From assembly GCA_020439605.1 (NCBI GenBank), contig JAGQSI010000028.1, positions 1-12,076 of the forward strand: a stretch of 12,076 nt of DNA, read 5' to 3'. Shown here piece by piece: positions 2,842 through 9,936 of this stretch; position 1 is the first letter of the stretch, and every line of letters begins with the position of its first letter. Both the position numbers and the translations under genes were made by a program. Origin of the DNA: Acidimicrobiales bacterium. Its GTDB lineage: Bacteria > Actinomycetota > Acidimicrobiia > Acidimicrobiales > Iamiaceae. The notes below the pieces were generated by a model, which was given only the letters and a program-made list of their open reading frames with translations, was not told the DNA's origin and searched no databases.

Positions 2842-4119
2842 CTATCGGTCCGCCACGTCGGTGCAGAGCAGATCCGCATCGGTTTCACGTCTGATGACGA
2901 GTCGGGCCTGCCCATCGCGAACGAACACGACTGCAGGACGATGCAACAAGTTGTAATTGCTGCCCATCGAACGCCCATAAGCACCGGTAACCGGCGTAGC
3001 AATCAAATCGCCAACCTCGAGTCCCGGGGGGACCTTGGCTTCTGGGACCAGGACATCACCAGACTCGCAATGCTTTCCGACGAGACGAACAACTTCGCTG
3101 CGATCGGCTTGAACCCGGGCGGGATCAAAGGTCTCATATCCAGACCCGTAGAGCGCCGGACGAGGATTGTCGACGAACCCGCCGTCGCAGGCCACGAAAC
3201 GGCGGATGCCGGGCACGTCCTTGATGGTGCCCACCCGATAGAGCGTGACTGCAGCCTGGGCAGTAATGGAACGCCCTGGTTCCGCGCTAACCCGAGCGGT
3301 GATACCAGCGCGTTCACAGGCTCTACGCACTACCTCACCCCATTCGGCGATGGAAGGAGCCTGTTCACCTTCAACGTAGGCAACTCCGATACCACCACCT
3401 ATCGACAGCTCGCTCACGCCTGACGCGTTGACGAACGGGGCGAGAACTTCGATGGCTTGTTCGAAGAAGCCAGCCACAAACACCTGAGATCCGATGTGGG
3501 CATGAAGGCCGATCAGTTCCACACCGGAACTGGCGCGGGAGCGTTCCACAGCCCTTTGGGCGTCGCCGACCTTCAGACCGAAACCAAACTTCGAGTCGTC
3601 CTGACCGGTCATGACGAACTCATGGGTGTGGGCCTCGACACCCGGGGTGATTCGCAGCAGAATCCTCGCCACCTCACCGTCTTCGCGATGTAGGAGCTCC
3701 AGACGGTCGAGTTCGTCGAAGCTGTCTACGACGATTCGACCCACACCAGCACGCCGAGCAGCTCGCAGCTCATCGCAACTCTTGTTGTTTCCGTGGAACA
3801 CGAGGCGCTCAGCCGGTACATCTGCCGCTAGTGCCACCGCGAGTTCCCCACCGCTCGCAACATCGAGGTGCATTCCTTCTTCGTGGGCCAGTCGAGCCAT
3901 TGCCCGACACAAGAATGCTTTGGTTGCGTAGGCGACACCGTCTCCAAAGGCATCCGCCGCTTCACGGCAACGATCGCGTAGATGCTGCTCGTCGTACACA
4001 AACAACGGGGTCCCGTATTGCTCTGCGAGCTCTCGCACGTCACAGCCACCGATTATCAGTTGCCCTTCGCTGCCGACTTCAGCGGAATCCGGAAGAAGAT
4101 TGCGGGGAAGAACGCTCAT
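2842..4119 (-). CDS. lysA: diaminopimelate decarboxylase
   Basis: PLP enzyme that decarboxylates meso-diaminopimelate to L-lysine, the last step of lysine synthesis; cytosolic dimer. An alanine-racemase-like TIM barrel carries the PLP lysine in YATKAF (Lys67), HIGSQ (about 209-213), the glycine-rich phosphate loop SIGGGIG (about 240-246) and EPGR (281-284). The C-terminal beta domain carries CESGD (352-356, the Cys contributed across the dimer) and the TGAYGRSMGSNYN substrate/PLP region (about 379-391). Length 425 aa is slightly short but complete. The ATG start overlaps the argS stop in an ATGA arrangement, with GGAG 5 nt upstream, giving good support for the start and for translational coupling. 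Second gene of the operon. Confidence 0.96.
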   Translation of the reverse strand: MSVLPRNLLPDSAEVGSEGQLIIGGCDVRELAEQYGTPLFVYDEQHLRDRCREAADAFGDGVAYATKAFLCRAMARLAHEEGMHLDVASGGELAVALAADVPAERLVFHGNNKSCDELRAARRAGVGRIVVDSFDELDRLELLHREDGEVARILLRITPGVEAHTHEFVMTGQDDSKFGFGLKVGDAQRAVERSRASSGVELIGLHAHIGSQVFVAGFFEQAIEVLAPFVNASGVSELSIGGGIGVAYVEGEQAPSIAEWGEVVRRACERAGITARVSAEPGRSITAQAAVTLYRVGTIKDVPGIRRFVACDGGFVDNPRPALYGSGYETFDPARVQADRSEVVRLVGKHCESGDVLVPEAKVPPGLEVGDLIATPVTGAYGRSMGSNYNLLHRPAVVFVRDGQARLVIRRETDADLLCTDVADR

Positions 4120-5720
4120 AGCTGCTCCGGAGCGCTGACACCGAGAAGGTCAAGACCGATCGACAGACCGACCCGCGCTGCCTCCACGAGTTGAAGCCTC
4201 GCATCTGCCAGCTCTGGCGCCACGTCATCGGCCACTACATAACAATCGTGGTAGAAGCCGTGGAAGGTGCCGGCAAGTTCTCTAACCCAGGTTGTGATGC
4301 GGTGAGGCGCTCGATCCCTAGCTGCAATGGCCACGACGTCTGGGAACTCTGAGAGTGATCGCAGAACCTCAAGTTCGCGTTCGTGCACCAACAGTGCCAG
4401 CGAGGCGTCCGCCAACGGTCCCCGCACAATGCCGGTCTCAGCGGCCTTGCGGGCAATTCCATGGATGCGGGCATGGGCCATCTGGACGTAGAAGACAGGA
4501 TTGTCCATGCCTTGGCTTGCCACCTCCGCTAGGTCGATGGTCTGACGAGAGTCGATGGATTGGAGCAGGTAGGTGAGCCGCGCAGCATCTGCCCCTACCT
4601 CATCTATGACGTCACGAAGCTCGATGACGGTTCCTGCACGCTTGGAAAGCCGCACTGGTTCACCGTCTTTGAGCAGGTCCACCAACTGGGTGATTTCAAC
4701 TTCGAGCTTGTCCGCGTCCTCGCCCAGCGACGCCATGGCTGCCTTCATTCGCACGATGTAGCCATGGTGATCTGCGCCCCAAACGTTGATGAGACGATCA
4801 GAGCGGGAGAACTTGTCTCGGTGATAGGCAATGTCTGGAAGCAGATAGGTGTATTCACCATCGCTCTTGACCAGCACACGGTCCTTGTCATCACCAAAGT
4901 CCGTTGAACGCAGCCAGGTCGCACCATCGGCTTCATAGGCAACACCACGGCTCAACAATTCGTTGAGGGTCGTTGTGATGGCGCCACTGTCCACCAGAGA
5001 CATTTCAGAGAACCAGCGGTCGAATACGACACCGAACGAACCAAGCACCTCTTTTTGGTCCTCGATCGCACGCTGCTTGCCCCACTCGACAGGATCGACC
5101 CCGTCGGGCATCTCGGATGCCCAATCCACGATGTATTGACCCAGATATCCCTCTTCAGGTGGTTCTTCGCCTGCTTTGCGGGCCGCGAGAGACTCCCCGA
5201 ACCGGGCCATCTGGACACCACGGTCATTGATGTAGAACTCGCGTGTCACCTGATGGCCTGTGCGCTCCAGCAACCGGGCCAAGGAATCGCCGTGCGAAGC
5301 ACCTCTGGCATGGCCGGCGTGAACGGGGCCTGTGGGATTGGCGGACACGAATTCAACGTTGACCCGCTCGCCAGCACCAAGGTCAGGGGCGGCGTAGCCG
5401 TCTGCACCGCCTTGAACCACCTCAACGAGAACGTCATGAAGCCATGTGGGCTTCAACCTGAAATTGATAAAACCTGGGCCAGCTATCTCCACCGAGTCGA
5501 CATGTGCCAGTTCGTTCGAGGCAAGGTAGGTGGCCAGTTCTTGAGCCAACTCACGAGGGTTGCGACCAGCCCGTTTTGCTGATGCGAGCGCCACGTTGGT
5601 GGACCAGTCGCCATGTTCACGATTGGCAGGGCGTTCCAGCTGGATCGACTCCGGTAGGGGGTCGACGCCCAGCGCCTCGAGCGCGCCGAGCACTCCAGCA
5701 GCGAGATCATCGCGAATCAC
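4116..5720 (-). CDS. argS: arginyl-tRNA synthetase
   Basis: Class I aminoacyl-tRNA synthetase charging tRNA-Arg with arginine using ATP. The N-terminal ArgS-specific domain (about 1-85) recognises the tRNA D-loop side. The catalytic core begins with FVSANPTGPVHAGHARG, where HAGH (134-137) is the HIGH motif. The KMSKS-equivalent is RLSKRAG (357-363), the degenerate form usual in ArgS. A C-terminal anticodon-binding domain follows (DALR type; ends LGVSAPEQL). Length 534 aa is normal to slightly short. The start is a GTG at 5720-5718 with an AAGGA ribosome binding site 6 nt upstream. The nearby ATG at 5711 is out of frame. First gene of the operon; its promoter must lie in the 200 bp before the tRNA. 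A tRNA-Arg gene diverges from it. Confidence 0.97.
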   Translation of the reverse strand: MIRDDLAAGVLGALEALGVDPLPESIQLERPANREHGDWSTNVALASAKRAGRNPRELAQELATYLASNELAHVDSVEIAGPGFINFRLKPTWLHDVLVEVVQGGADGYAAPDLGAGERVNVEFVSANPTGPVHAGHARGASHGDSLARLLERTGHQVTREFYINDRGVQMARFGESLAARKAGEEPPEEGYLGQYIVDWASEMPDGVDPVEWGKQRAIEDQKEVLGSFGVVFDRWFSEMSLVDSGAITTTLNELLSRGVAYEADGATWLRSTDFGDDKDRVLVKSDGEYTYLLPDIAYHRDKFSRSDRLINVWGADHHGYIVRMKAAMASLGEDADKLEVEITQLVDLLKDGEPVRLSKRAGTVIELRDVIDEVGADAARLTYLLQSIDSRQTIDLAEVASQGMDNPVFYVQMAHARIHGIARKAAETGIVRGPLADASLALLVHERELEVLRSLSEFPDVVAIAARDRAPHRITTWVRELAGTFHGFYHDCYVVADDVAPELADARLQLVEAARVGLSIGLDLLGVSAPEQL

Positions 5721-5920: not shown

Positions 5921-5992
5921 GCCCTCGTAGCTCAGGGGATAGAGCATCGCCCTCCGGAGGCGTGTGCGCAGGTTCGAATCCTGCCGAGGGCG
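5921..5992 (+). tRNA. tRNA-Arg (anticodon CCG)
   Basis: A complete cloverleaf can be drawn. The acceptor stem GCCCTCG (5921-5927) pairs perfectly with CGAGGGC (5985-5991). The D stem is GCTC/GAGC. The anticodon loop CTCCGGA (5952-5958) has CCG at 5954-5956. The variable loop is 4 nt. The T stem GCAGG/CCTGC encloses TTCGAAT. The discriminator is G5992, and CCA is not encoded. CCG reads the CGG arginine codon. An A in the D loop fits the arginine identity set. The outermost anticodon-stem pair (5947-5963) is T opposite T, a mismatch; the other four pairs are canonical. It lies head-to-head with argS, whose product charges it. No intrinsic terminator with a T-run is visible downstream. Confidence 0.95.
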
Positions 5993-6024
5993 CAAGTGTG
6001 ATGCGCTAGACATGGCGCCCATCC

Positions 6025-6051
6025 CTTAGCTCGGCAGCTGGTTGGGCTAAG
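6025..6051 (-). terminator. weak stem-loop at the 3' end of the tetR gene
   Basis: CTTAGC (6025-6030) and GCTAAG (6046-6051) form a perfect 6-bp stem around a 15-nt loop that contains CAGCTG. The right arm overlaps the tetR stop codon. There is no T-run on either strand, so it is at best a transcript-end or processing hairpin. It could serve either the leftward tetR transcript or the rightward tRNA transcript. Confidence 0.25.
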
Positions 6052-6655
6052 CCTTGGGTACCTCTGCCGCAGCGGCGAAGACTGCGGTGACCGAATCCGC
6101 ATATGGCAGTGCCGCTTCTGGCCCTAGCTGCACCACTGCCATCAATAGTGCCAACACGATCGAGATAACCCCTTCGGAGATCAGGTCTGGGTCTATGTCG
6201 CTTCGGACCAGCCCTAGGGACTGATCTGCTCGTAGTCGATCTGCTACCGCGTAACGCATCTCCGACAGTGCCGGGATATCAAGAACTCGCGGAGTGACTT
6301 CTGGCTCTAGGCCCGCCAACAGTCGTCTCGCCAACGGATGACGTTCTAGAGCATCTACCAGCGACAGCACCAGGCCGGCTCGCCAATCCTCGACAGAGGG
6401 ACCACTGCCTTGCAGGTGAGCCAGGCCTTCGGCGATGGTGCCCGCTGCATCCTCGTCCACAGCGGCATAGAACAACGCTTCCTTGTTGGGGAAGTATGCG
6501 TAGGCGGCAGTTCCGCTCACCCCGGCGTGGCGTGCAATGTCTGCAACCGATGTGGACCGGAACCCATTGGCACCGAAGCGCTCGATAGCCGTGGCCAAGA
6601 TTGCGGCCCGGGTCTGCTCTCCTTTTGGAGTCACTGGGGAATCAACGATCGTCAT
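6047..6655 (-). CDS. TetR-family transcriptional repressor
   Basis: A one-component ligand-sensing repressor. The N-terminal helix-turn-helix (about residues 14-60) shows the family pattern: TRAAILATAIERFGANGF, then the recognition segment around VADIARHAGVSGTAAYAYF, then PNKEALF. The C-terminal helical domain (about 65-202) is the variable ligand-binding and dimerisation part and gives no substrate clue. The chosen ATG at 6655 gives 202 aa. An upstream ATG at 6700 adds 15 residues with no family resemblance and would lie upstream of the predicted start of transcription. It is divergent from the PF10118-monooxygenase genes, the classic layout for a local repressor. Its N-terminal half does not resemble M. 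tuberculosis EthR as I recall that sequence, so it is probably not an EthR orthologue. It probably represses itself as well, through the palindrome at 6674-6702. Confidence 0.9.
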   Translation of the reverse strand: MTIVDSPVTPKGEQTRAAILATAIERFGANGFRSTSVADIARHAGVSGTAAYAYFPNKEALFYAAVDEDAAGTIAEGLAHLQGSGPSVEDWRAGLVLSLVDALERHPLARRLLAGLEPEVTPRVLDIPALSEMRYAVADRLRADQSLGLVRSDIDPDLISEGVISIVLALLMAVVQLGPEAALPYADSVTAVFAAAAEVPKA

Positions 6656-6663
6656 CGGTGACC

Positions 6664-6692
6664 AATGTAACACAAATGAGGGATTGAGTAAA
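6664..6692 (-). promoter_or_regulatory. candidate tetR promoter (minus strand)
   Basis: On the minus strand TTTACT (6692-6687) and TACATT (6669-6664) are separated by 17 nt. The predicted transcription start, about 7 nt after the -10 box, is near 6657, two bases before the ATG at 6655. The mRNA would thus be leaderless or nearly so, consistent with the lack of a good Shine-Dalgarno sequence. The -35 box sits on the centre of the 29-bp palindrome. Confidence 0.5.
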
Positions 6693-6702
6693 TCTCTCAT
6701 TT
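6674..6702. promoter_or_regulatory. 29-bp palindromic operator candidate for the divergent TetR
   Basis: AAATGAG (6674-6680) mirrors CTCATTT (6696-6702), and GATT (6682-6685) mirrors AATC (6691-6694). In all, 12 of 14 base pairs are symmetric about 6688. Length and symmetry fit a TetR dimer or dimer-pair site. It lies between tetR and the PF10118 gene and covers the -35 boxes proposed for both directions. Binding by the neighbouring TetR protein is inferred from position and symmetry. Confidence 0.75.
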
Positions 6703-6713
6703 CATGATATGTT
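6684..6713 (+). promoter_or_regulatory. candidate leaderless promoter of the PF10118-monooxygenase genes
   Basis: TTGAGT (6684-6689), an 18-nt spacer and TATGTT (6708-6713) form a sigma70-like promoter. The last T of the -10 box is exactly 7 nt before A6720, the first base of the ATG. Transcription would start on the start codon. No Shine-Dalgarno sequence is present before this ATG, as expected for a leaderless mRNA, which is common in actinobacteria. The -35 box overlaps the palindrome centre. Confidence 0.55.
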
Positions 6714-6719
6714 TGTCAC

Positions 6720-7589
6720 ATGGAGCAAACGAGCGACCCAAATCGCACCATCACCACTCGTCGGATTTCGTTCGAACCATCCCTCGAAGGCCTCCCCAAA
6801 CTCTTCGCAACCGATGAGGACCTCATCCGTTCTCACCTTGTTGCCGTGTTGACTTCGCTGTTCCCCGATGGAGAGGACTTCTTCGTTGCGGCAGTTCGCC
6901 ACTACCGAGACCGAATCACAGATCCGGTCCTGAAGAAGCAGGTAGCTGGCTTCATCGGCCAAGAAGCCATCCACGGACGTGAGCATCGAGTACTCAACAA
7001 CGCCCTCGCAGATCTGGGTTACCCGACACACCGCATCGAGAAAATGACAGCGTGGGGACTGGGCATGCGACTTCGCAAAGCACCCCCCATCACCAACCTG
7101 GCGCTCACCGCCGCACTCGAGCACTACACCGCCACTCTCGCAGAGTTGCTGCTTACCTCGGACCTCGAGAAGGAGTTCTCCCACGAAGGAATCCGTGACG
7201 TGTTCCTATGGCACGCGCTGGAGGAGTCCGAGCACAAGGCAGTGGCCTTCGACGTATACAGGGCGGTGGGTGGATCCGAGCGTATGAGGATCTGGACCAT
7301 GAAGGTCCTACGGCCTGGTTTCGCGATCTTCCTCGCAATCCACGTCCTCGTATCGATTCTCTCCACCCCCGAGGGTCGCAAGCGCGGAGCACTGCGCAAG
7401 AGCTGGAGGTCTTTCAAGCAATCCGAGATTGTTTCCAAGGACGTTTGGTCAAGGCTCAAGGAATACGACCGCCGAGGCTTCCACCCCAACGACCGTGACA
7501 CCACAGAACTAGAAGCCAAGTGGCGTGGCATCCTCTTTGGCGAAGAAGGCACCCTGAACGAACTACTAGTTACCAAGGCTGCAGCATGA
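6720..7589 (+). CDS. PF10118-like 'predicted metal-dependent hydrolase' (ferritin-like helical protein)
   Basis: 289 aa resembling the actinobacterial and proteobacterial family annotated as metal-dependent hydrolase (PF10118), whose reaction is not established. Mostly helical. Possible metal ligands are two ExxH pairs, E82-x-x-H85 in QEAIHGREH and E169-x-x-H172 in EESEHK, with E134-H135 in ALEHY between them. This spacing resembles di-iron ferritin-like proteins (inference). Residues about 197-214 (PGFAIFLAIHVLVSIL) are strongly hydrophobic and may touch the membrane. The ATG at 6720 is the only reasonable start and appears leaderless. The gene is first in a probable operon; its stop overlaps the monooxygenase start by 4 nt (ATGA), so the two products are probably made in coupled amounts and may act on the same substrate. 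Confidence 0.8.
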   Translation: MEQTSDPNRTITTRRISFEPSLEGLPKLFATDEDLIRSHLVAVLTSLFPDGEDFFVAAVRHYRDRITDPVLKKQVAGFIGQEAIHGREHRVLNNALADLGYPTHRIEKMTAWGLGMRLRKAPPITNLALTAALEHYTATLAELLLTSDLEKEFSHEGIRDVFLWHALEESEHKAVAFDVYRAVGGSERMRIWTMKVLRPGFAIFLAIHVLVSILSTPEGRKRGALRKSWRSFKQSEIVSKDVWSRLKEYDRRGFHPNDRDTTELEAKWRGILFGEEGTLNELLVTKAAA

Positions 7590-9139
7590 CTAGCCCAGAA
7601 CTCGAGCACCTCGATGTGATGATTGTTGGCGCAGGTATCTCCGGTATCGCCGCTGGCCACCACATCAAAACAACCTGCCCATGGGCGAGTTTCGCCATTT
7701 TCGAAGCTCGCGAAACAATGGGCGGCACCTGGGATCTGTTCAAATACCCAGGCATCCGTTCTGACTCGGACATGTTCACCCTGGGCTTCTCGTTTCGCCC
7801 GTGGGACGGGGAACAGGCAATCGCAGACGGTGCCGAGATTCTGCGCTACCTGAAGGAGACAGCAACCGCTGAGGGCTTGGACGAAAAGATCCGCTATCAG
7901 CACAAGATCGTCAACGCATCATGGTCCAGCGATGACGCACTGTGGCACGTGACTGCACAACGTGGCGACACCGGCGAAACGATTCAACTCACCACGAACT
8001 TCCTTTTCGCCTGTTCCGGTTACTACCGCTACGACAGCGGCTACCTACCCGACTTTCAAGGGATCAAGGACTTTGAAGGAGAGGTCATCCATCCCCAGTT
8101 CTGGCCTGAGGACTTCGATTTCACAGACAAGGAGGTCGTTGTAATCGGCAGTGGCGCAACGGCCATAACCCTCGTCCCTTCGCTTTCGCCTAAGGCGGGG
8201 CATGTAACGATGCTCCAGCGTTCTCCCACATACATGGTGACGCTTCCCAAGGTGGATCCAATCGCCAACTTCTTGCGCAAAGTGCTTCCGACCAAGGTCT
8301 CCGGCGGGCTCATGCGCTGGCAACGCGCCTTGTTCACCCAAGGCTTCTATCGCTTGAGCCGCAGCCAACCGGAGTTCATGAGAAGGGTTCTTCGCAAGGG
8401 CGTGGCCGCGCAACTGCCGAAGGACTACGACACAGATACCCACTTCAACCCGCACTACAAGCCCTGGGACCAGCGCGTCTGCATGGTCACAGATGGCGAC
8501 ATGTTCCGTGAGATCCGCCAAGGTCGTGCATCTGTGGTGACAGATCACATCGAGACCTTCGACAAGACCGGTATCAAGCTGGCGTCTGGCGATCATCTAG
8601 ACGCTGACGTGGTGATAACCGCAACAGGGCTGAGCCTGCTGTTCCTGGGCGGGATCGAAGTCGAAGTTGACGGTGAAAAAGTTGAACCGGCCGACAAGCT
8701 TTCCTACAAGGGCATGATGCTTGAGGATGTGCCGAATCTCGCCATAGCTCTCGGCTACACAAATGCTTCCTGGACTCTCAAGGCAGAACTCACCTGCGAT
8801 GCGGTCGCGCGCATTCTCAACCACATGAGACGCGTCGGCATGCGCCAGGCAACACCGGTTGATGTTGAAGGCAACTCTGCAACCAACGATTCCGTCTTTG
8901 ACCTGCAATCTGGCTATGTCCAGCGAGCGGCCTCGCTACTACCGAAGCAGGGCAAGGTGTTCCCGTGGCAGGTACATCAGTCCTACGTGAAGGACTACAT
9001 GGCGATGAAGAAGAAGCCAATCGTCGATGGGGTCATGCAGTTCACCAACCCATCGCCGCTCAGGGGCAAGACCCAAGCGAAATCCGAGGCCACCGATTCC
9101 GCCCTCGACGAGCGGTCTCTAGCCACTAATTCGGACTGA
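7586..9139 (+). CDS. EthA-like flavin-dependent (Baeyer-Villiger) monooxygenase
   Basis: FAD- and NADPH-dependent class B monooxygenase. It inserts oxygen into ketones to make esters or lactones, or oxidises sulfur compounds; M. tuberculosis EthA activates ethionamide. The FAD Rossmann motif GAGISG is at 15-20. The EthA-like block GGTWDLFKYPGIRSDSDM follows at about 46-63. The type I fingerprint FxGxxxHxxxWP is exact at F163-P174. The NADPH Rossmann motif GSGATA is at 188-193. The late ATG motif is in TATGLSLLFLGG. Length 517 aa is slightly longer than EthA (about 489), with a hydrophilic C-terminal tail. The start ATG at 7586 overlaps the preceding stop; a longer upstream frame from 7520 only runs inside the previous gene. 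Resemblance to EthA is strong by recall. Substrate unknown; gene symbol withheld because orthology is unproven. Confidence 0.93.
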   Translation: MTSPELEHLDVMIVGAGISGIAAGHHIKTTCPWASFAIFEARETMGGTWDLFKYPGIRSDSDMFTLGFSFRPWDGEQAIADGAEILRYLKETATAEGLDEKIRYQHKIVNASWSSDDALWHVTAQRGDTGETIQLTTNFLFACSGYYRYDSGYLPDFQGIKDFEGEVIHPQFWPEDFDFTDKEVVVIGSGATAITLVPSLSPKAGHVTMLQRSPTYMVTLPKVDPIANFLRKVLPTKVSGGLMRWQRALFTQGFYRLSRSQPEFMRRVLRKGVAAQLPKDYDTDTHFNPHYKPWDQRVCMVTDGDMFREIRQGRASVVTDHIETFDKTGIKLASGDHLDADVVITATGLSLLFLGGIEVEVDGEKVEPADKLSYKGMMLEDVPNLAIALGYTNASWTLKAELTCDAVARILNHMRRVGMRQATPVDVEGNSATNDSVFDLQSGYVQRAASLLPKQGKVFPWQVHQSYVKDYMAMKKKPIVDGVMQFTNPSPLRGKTQAKSEATDSALDERSLATNSD

Positions 9140-9164: not shown

Positions 9165-9210
9165 AGCGGGCATCGTTTTATGGCACTACCGTCATGAAGC
9201 GATGCCCGCT
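9165..9210. repeat. 11-bp perfect inverted repeat around the hydrolase start codon
   Basis: AGCGGGCATCG (9165-9175) is the exact reverse complement of CGATGCCCGCT (9200-9210), with a 24-nt spacer. The right arm contains the hydrolase ATG (9202-9204). In a transcript reading through from the monooxygenase, the stem would bury the start codon. If transcription started inside the spacer, the left arm would be missing and the start would be free. There is no T-run, so it is not a typical terminator. Confidence 0.7.
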
Positions 9211-9936
9211 GTCTTTGTCCACGGAGTTCCAGAAACAGCCGATGTCTGGGATTCGCTGATCGCTGAACTTGAGCGCACCGATGTGGTGGCTCTGGCCCTT
9301 CCCGGTTTTGGCCGTCCTGTTCCTGAGGGTTTCAACCCCGATATGGAGACCTATGCCTCCTGGTTGGCCGAGGAGATATCAGGTTTCGATGAAGTTGACC
9401 TTGTAACCCACGACTGGGGCGCTCTGTTGGCGCTGCGAGTTCTTGGGGATCGCCCGTCCAACGTTCGCAGCTGGGTAGCTGATCTCGGGGACCTGGGCGA
9501 TGATTTCCGCTGGCACGACACGGCACGGGGATGGCAGAGCGAAGGCACCGGCGAAGAAATGATGAGTGGGCTGATGGCGGCGAGCAACGAAGATCGAGCC
9601 GCTGTACTTGAAGCGGTAGGGGTCCCTGCCTCACATTCGGAGGACATGGCCGAAGCCTTTGACGAAACCATGGCTGCAGCCATACTCACCCTCTATCGCT
9701 CTGCCACCGAGATCGGTAAGCAGTGGGACCCATGTATCGCCAGGATCGCTGCTCCTGGCCTGCTGATCGAGTCCCACCTGGATCCCTTCCGATCCTCCCG
9801 GCGAGTAGGACGCCTCGCTGAACGAACTGGCGCACAGGTGGCTGCACTGCCCAACTCAGGTCACTTCTGGATGCTCGATGACGCGCCGGGCGCGGCGCGA
9901 GCCATATCGACTTTCTGGACGGACCTGGAGGCCTGA
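9202..9936 (+). CDS. alpha/beta-hydrolase with Asp nucleophile (epoxide hydrolase/dehalogenase-like)
   Basis: 244 aa, a compact alpha/beta-hydrolase fold. The oxyanion-hole motif HGVPE (7-11) follows the first strand directly. The nucleophile elbow is THDWGA with Asp71 where esterases have Ser. The acid is probably Asp194 in IESHLDPF, and the base His221 in SGHFWMLD. An Asp nucleophile after His and before Trp-Gly is typical of epoxide hydrolases and haloalkane dehalogenases. HGxPE favours the epoxide hydrolase side, since dehalogenases usually have Asn after HG. A cap-domain Tyr (about 165, LTLYRS) might donate a proton. The start at 9202 is the only in-frame ATG; the upstream ATGs at 9180 and 9194 are in other frames. 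It lies 62 nt after the monooxygenase gene, and the inverted repeat at 9165-9210 covers its start. It may hydrolyse a downstream product, but ester cleavage by a Ser mechanism is excluded. Confidence 0.88.
   Translation: MPAVFVHGVPETADVWDSLIAELERTDVVALALPGFGRPVPEGFNPDMETYASWLAEEISGFDEVDLVTHDWGALLALRVLGDRPSNVRSWVADLGDLGDDFRWHDTARGWQSEGTGEEMMSGLMAASNEDRAAVLEAVGVPASHSEDMAEAFDETMAAAILTLYRSATEIGKQWDPCIARIAAPGLLIESHLDPFRSSRRVGRLAERTGAQVAALPNSGHFWMLDDAPGAARAISTFWTDLEA

Follow-up and report, generated by a model that had tools for sequence, protein, structure and literature searches.

A conserved palindrome between tetR and a PF10118-monooxygenase operon is the probable operator of two unequal, divergent promoters

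In a 12,076-nucleotide stretch of DNA from an Acidimicrobiales bacterium, hereafter the window, a 29-bp palindrome, AAATGAGGGATTGAGTAAATCTCTCATTT, occupies positions 6674-6702. It lies in the 64-bp intergenic region that separates a minus-strand tetR-family gene (6655-6047) from a plus-strand gene of the PF10118 family (6720-7589). We propose that the TetR protein encoded beside it (6047-6655) has its operator in this palindrome and would repress its own gene together with an operon for the PF10118 protein, a monooxygenase and a hydrolase, probably as two dimers. From the sequence evidence we place the probability of this reading at about 0.87. The palindrome is centred on 6688, pairs at 12 of 14 positions, and forms the core of a 33-column conserved motif (6672-6704, belonging to neither strand in particular). 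The original prediction had described the palindrome, its centre, its pairing and the promoter boxes around it, and all of these were recovered at the same coordinates.

Within the window this is the only odd-centred palindrome with at least 12 of 14 pairs, and the same pairing was reached in 4 out of 20,000 single-base shuffles of the intergenic region. The source assembly (2.33 Mb in 556 contigs, 70% complete) contains it once at up to three mismatches, with no match for the reversed control; a second copy is possible in the missing part.

Conservation was examined in 106 loci, gathered by searching 99 related genomes for tetR, by a PF10118 search of the genome collection (75 loci) and from the source assembly itself; two of the loci are copies of the window. 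Judged by organism names, 42 of the 75 PF10118-search loci belong to Acidimicrobiia or to a named member of that class, and most of the others are Actinomycetota without a class. A few are named otherwise, for example L038 (Acidobacteriota), L040 (Thermoanaerobacterales) and L096, L098, L102 and L103 (deltaproteobacterial or myxococcal). In 54 loci, the window among them and no two with the same intergenic DNA, tetR and PF10118 are divergent within 600 bp; these make up 52 sequence clusters.

A position-weight search, which read one orientation only (tetR left, operon right), found one motif in all 54 divergent loci, approximately GAAwTTGAGnnATTGAGtnAATCnCTCAAwTC. Its score is at least 15.8 bits in every locus, against a maximum of 5.8 bits in shuffled sequences. 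When each locus was left out in turn, dropping also the sites at least 80% alike, the same position was regained in 53 of the 54 loci (L055 is the exception), and the motif outscored every control stretch in all 54. The reversed site scored better in 2 of 53 loci; with leave-one-out scoring this was so in 5 of 54. The original prediction would have been undermined by a palindrome that is not kept beside orthologous tetR genes, and in these 54 loci it is kept. The palindrome is thus conserved between tetR and its divergent target and covers both promoters as predicted from the sequence.

The motif follows this particular regulator. A TetR match at E <=1e-40 is present in 28 genomes. With up to two mismatches allowed, 20 of them have the motif, and every copy lies next to tetR; in the remaining eight none was found at this threshold. 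Among 28 PF10118 loci without tetR (in four of which the scanned stretch is shorter than the full 530 bases), the motif occurs in only one, L066, at 29.6 bits, and the next best score is 9.8 bits. In L019 and L026 the gene across from this tetR and the motif is of AurF type (PF11583) and takes the place of PF10118. In L025 and L028 relatives of tetR are present and the motif is absent.

At L066 the palindrome stands before PF10118 (start 2965), no relative of tetR turned up in the locus, and the long frame facing the palindrome reads, from its sequence, like a transporter; this site may be controlled in trans. Two other loci without this tetR, L076 and L078, have a different palindrome upstream of PF10118, CGAATC...GATTCG, perhaps the operator of another regulator. 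Relatives of this TetR stand in tandem arrays of two to three adjacent copies in L028 (G033:C1:705832-707941), G129:C9 and G394:C201, and at L028 none of the scanned tetR copies carries the palindrome. A wider regulon was considered and rejected. With up to two mismatches allowed, six of the 99 genomes have matches that do not accompany a close TetR, and four of these six, together with four other genomes, are hit by the reversed control as well.

A held-out set was drawn from 395 genomes at class level. The cassette is not universal, as a TetR match (E <=1e-30) is present in 32 of them. The matches examined covered 30 loci and included 22 new ones, of which one, L140, repeats a known site and is left out of the counts. 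Ten of the 11 close orthologs have a site of at least 19 bits, and the eleventh (L143) reaches 6.4. At least eight of these 11 come from a family (f19 or f15) already represented in the first set, and two of them from a genus represented there, so the set is not fully independent. None of the ten distant paralogues has a forward site above 10 bits. On the reverse strand two of the ten exceed 17 bits (L146 with 17.5 and L152 with 18.5), which may mark a related operator in the opposite orientation. We therefore rejected the idea of a general TetR operator, the two reverse-strand sites notwithstanding.

Two promoters are predicted to start from this element in opposite directions, and they are not built alike. 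On the plus strand, the operon promoter has its -35 box TTGAGT (6684-6689) at the operator centre and its -10 box TATGTT at 6708-6713, with a spacer of 18; in this genome TGA (6705-6707) precedes the -10 box. On the minus strand, the tetR promoter has an extended -10 (6664-6672), TGT joined to TACATT (6669-6664), and, across a spacer of 17, the weak -35-like hexamer TTTACT (6692-6687).

The difference is seen across the 53 loci of the pair and promoter tables, from which L055 was dropped. On the operon side TTGA is kept in 46 of 53 loci and the -10 pattern TANNNT in 49 of 53, and an extended -10 (TGn) accompanies it in 3 of the 49. For tetR the figures are 6 of 53 for TTGA, 36 of 53 for TANNNT (at offsets 18-21) and 33 of 36 for TGn. 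The held-out close loci give a similar picture, with TTGA in 9 of 11, TANNNT in 9 of 11 and TGn in 0 of 9 on the operon side, and 0 of 11, 7 of 11 and 5 of 7, respectively, on the tetR side. The window's own operon promoter is atypical, having both TGn and an 18-bp spacer.

The distance of the -10 pattern from the operator centre was counted in 52 loci (L055 and L080 dropped). On the operon side it is 19 in 42 loci and 20 in five, the window among the latter; on the tetR side it is 19 in 22 loci and 18 in eight. The overall rate of TANNNT across the scanned positions is 1.85%, peaks included. In most loci the -10 boxes thus lie at fixed offsets from the centre, in line with the original prediction of a palindrome lying over the upstream elements of both promoters. 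That prediction had also placed two overlapping -35 boxes in the centre. Here the operon half is borne out, but the TTTACT of tetR is not kept as a -35 box and an extended -10 takes its place. On the sequence evidence, then, the operator centre contains one -35 box and not two, and the tetR promoter compensates with its extended -10. This would explain the broken symmetry of the palindrome at its centre, where columns 15 and 19 pair in 5 of 53 loci; alternatively, the central asymmetry may serve the repressor itself.

In the window both transcripts are predicted to begin almost at the start codon. On the operon side the seventh base after the -10 box is position 6720, the A of the ATG, and on the tetR side it is 6657, 2 nt ahead of the ATG at 6655; the predicted starts agree with the coordinates given originally. 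For the other loci, a start was called leaderless if an in-frame start codon lies -2 to +3 nt from the predicted transcript start, the nearest codon being taken, which favours leaderless calls. By position, 28 of 54 loci are leaderless on the operon side, 37 of 54 on the tetR side and 20 of 54 on both, the window among them. When the same 6-nt window was shifted in steps of 6, the loci that qualified numbered 0-8 for the operon and 0-6 for tetR. A Shine-Dalgarno-like word (from a word list of our choosing) is absent from all 65 leaderless starts. Where the operon has a leader of at least 15 nt, such a word is present in 12 of 19 cases, as expected under the model; at tetR one start has a leader this long, and it lacks the word. 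The start positions and the missing Shine-Dalgarno words fit leaderless promoters. The earlier claim of promoters without 5' leaders fits the window and most loci on the tetR side, but only about half of the loci on the operon side. In L059, from the cultured carrier Desertimonas flava, the tetR start departs from the common spacing and is 43 nt away from the operator centre.

How many dimers would bind is suggested by the shape of the element. It is 29-31 bp long, with information spread across motif columns 3-31. Its outer half-sites, TTGAG and CTCAA, stand 20 bp apart and are among the most conserved parts (columns 6-8 pair with 26-28 in 47-51 of 53 loci), in contrast to the poorly paired centre. 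In the available part of PMC4150764, TetR operators bound by one dimer measure 15-17 bp and those bound by two dimers 22-32 bp, so that the length found here fits the two-dimer (QacR-like) class. The top structural match of our TetR model is Rv0078 (EthR2), which, in the available part of PMC6016246, binds as two dimers staggered by 7 bp. Because of this length, the spacing of the outer half-sites and the behaviour of Rv0078, two dimers probably suit the element better than one, by analogy, and the single bound dimer of the original prediction becomes the less likely arrangement. One dimer at the centre of the same operator, with the outer arms as flanking contacts only, would agree with the element being one clean palindrome and would still cover both -35 regions. 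Against the conservation of the outer half-sites and the operator lengths and precedent just cited, we hold this to be unlikely, though well worth keeping in mind. Two observations do weigh against the reading that we prefer. The left of the two overlapping sub-sites proposed for two dimers matches TTGAG-n7-CTCAA poorly (columns 17-19 vary), which would suit a single dimer, and positions 6000-7500, scanned with a generic sigma-70 pattern that required at least 9 of 12 matches, gave no promoter here. As both box pairs in the window reach only 8 of 12 against the sigma-70 consensus, the status of the promoters rests on their conservation and not on the strength of their boxes.

Other explanations would assign the palindrome a different role. 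It could be bound by a different regulator that acts on PF10118-type genes, as L066, with its motif but no tetR relative, might indicate. However, both the presence and the absence of the motif follow the tetR ortholog: it is missing from 27 of the 28 PF10118 loci without tetR and retained with tetR beside another enzyme in L019 and L026. This makes such a regulator very improbable. Alternatively, TetR could control the operon while tetR itself is not truly autoregulated or has another promoter, the minus-strand elements being by-products of the palindrome. The unconserved minus-strand -35 and the lower frequency of TANNNT on that side speak for this. Still, the minus-strand -10 lies outside the palindrome core at a fixed offset, nearly always carries TGn, and is followed by the tetR start codon at leaderless distance in most loci; we find this explanation improbable. 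Finally, a two-arm repeat is able to form a hairpin and might have arisen by chance or act in the transcript, for example as a terminator. The palindrome lies upstream of both predicted starts, its sequence itself is kept across the 54 loci beyond mere pairing, and its strength is rarely matched by shuffling in the window alone, so that we give this explanation practically no weight. A transcription terminator was also rejected by a scan of 6000-7500, which gave only 6494-6478.

According to our model, TetR would bind the palindrome, probably as two dimers on overlapping half-sites, and cover the upstream elements of the back-to-back promoters, shutting both tetR and the operon. An inducer, plausibly a substrate or product of the operon, would loosen it. 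RNA polymerase could then start in either direction, probably not in both at once because the two promoters draw on one stretch of ~30 bp. The one good -35 box that fits the operator centre would serve the operon promoter, and the tetR promoter would rely on its extended -10. Both mRNAs of this genome would start 0-2 nt from the ATG, leaving no leader between control at the operator and translation. A stronger form of the model, which we put forward tentatively and at somewhat less than even odds, is that the ~30-bp element is at once a two-dimer operator and the upstream part that two opposed promoters have in common, both nearly leaderless and each excluding the other, the operon owning the -35 and tetR an extended -10 in most carriers, and that promoter competition adds to repression. 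If true, firing of the operon would lower repressor synthesis, a built-in positive feedback.

The split between a conserved -35-type and an extended -10-type promoter would be a clean test case of one sequence serving a repressor and two polymerases. The TetR subfamily gains a specific candidate operator consensus and target, and its tie to the PF10118-monooxygenase operon would make an inducer screen possible.

The TetR protein has 202 residues (minus strand, 6047-6655, ATG at 6655, predicted transcript start 6657) and carries the TetR_N helix-turn-helix (PF00440, E 9.9e-15, 54.5 bits against a cut-off of 24). Its predicted structure (pLDDT 89) has the all-helical fold with a C-terminal ligand domain, and its top fold matches are TetR-family proteins spanning residues 6-201. 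We aligned it with 39 homologs of 59-78% identity. A longer frame from 6700 (217 aa, 15 residues more) would start within the palindrome; it was rejected because 31 of the 39 homologs have 6-14 residues ahead of the conserved lysine 11, where the start at 6655 gives 10. Four of the 39 have at least 20 residues there, so some relatives start earlier or are annotated so. A tRNA-Arg(CCG) gene lies on the plus strand (5921-5993) between argS (minus strand, 4116-5720) and tetR.

All three operon genes are on the plus strand. The first encodes the PF10118 protein (289 aa, 6720-7589, E 5.9e-68), with its ATG at the predicted +1. Its stop overlaps the start of the flavin monooxygenase gene (7586-9139) as ATGA (7586-7589), which suggests translational coupling. 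The monooxygenase is of the FMO/Baeyer-Villiger kind (PF00743, matched on the longer frame 7520-9139). After a gap of 62 bp follows the alpha/beta hydrolase (9202-9936, PF12697, E 3.9e-16), possibly the last gene of the operon. Together the enzymes would suggest an oxidative degradation pathway. The label of PF10118 is metal-dependent hydrolase, and a sequence search against solved structures gave no match for it. The invariant Glu/His residues in its alignment and weak fold matches (E 0.026 and up, none below 0.001), led by R2-like oxidases (R2lox) and AurF-type oxygenases and including CmlI, suggest a di-iron protein. The AurF-family genes that stand in for it next to this tetR and the palindrome (L019:2221-3192 and L026:490-1425) point the same way.

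The class of system is already known. In Tn10 tetR-tetA an autoregulated TetR acts on overlapping divergent promoters, as proposed here, although through two 15-bp operators with one dimer each. EthR-ethA resembles the present case in that a TetR-family repressor controls a Baeyer-Villiger-type monooxygenase, and differs in that the first operon gene here is PF10118. The EthR motif, as described in the available part of PMC4482099, is present in several copies, bigger and more complex, and departs from a classical palindrome, unlike the one clean palindrome found here. QacR, CgmR, MS6564 and CprB share the 22-32 bp operator class in the available part of PMC4150764, and the likeness to them is one of length, two-dimer binding being our proposal for this operator. 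In Rv0078-Rv0077c of Mycobacterium tuberculosis, according to the available part of PMC6016246, a 21-bp operator lies over both transcription starts and each start falls within the untranslated region of the other gene. Here the element of 29-31 bp lies on the -35 regions, and the predicted starts point away from each other, nearly leaderless; the identity between Rv0078/EthR2 and our TetR model is 15% over the aligned part. Among the matches listed in a search of the open literature, which left most subscription papers outside, we recognised no paper on this operator or cassette. Next to the known systems, what is new here is the TetR family, its operator consensus and the conserved pair of unequal promoters.
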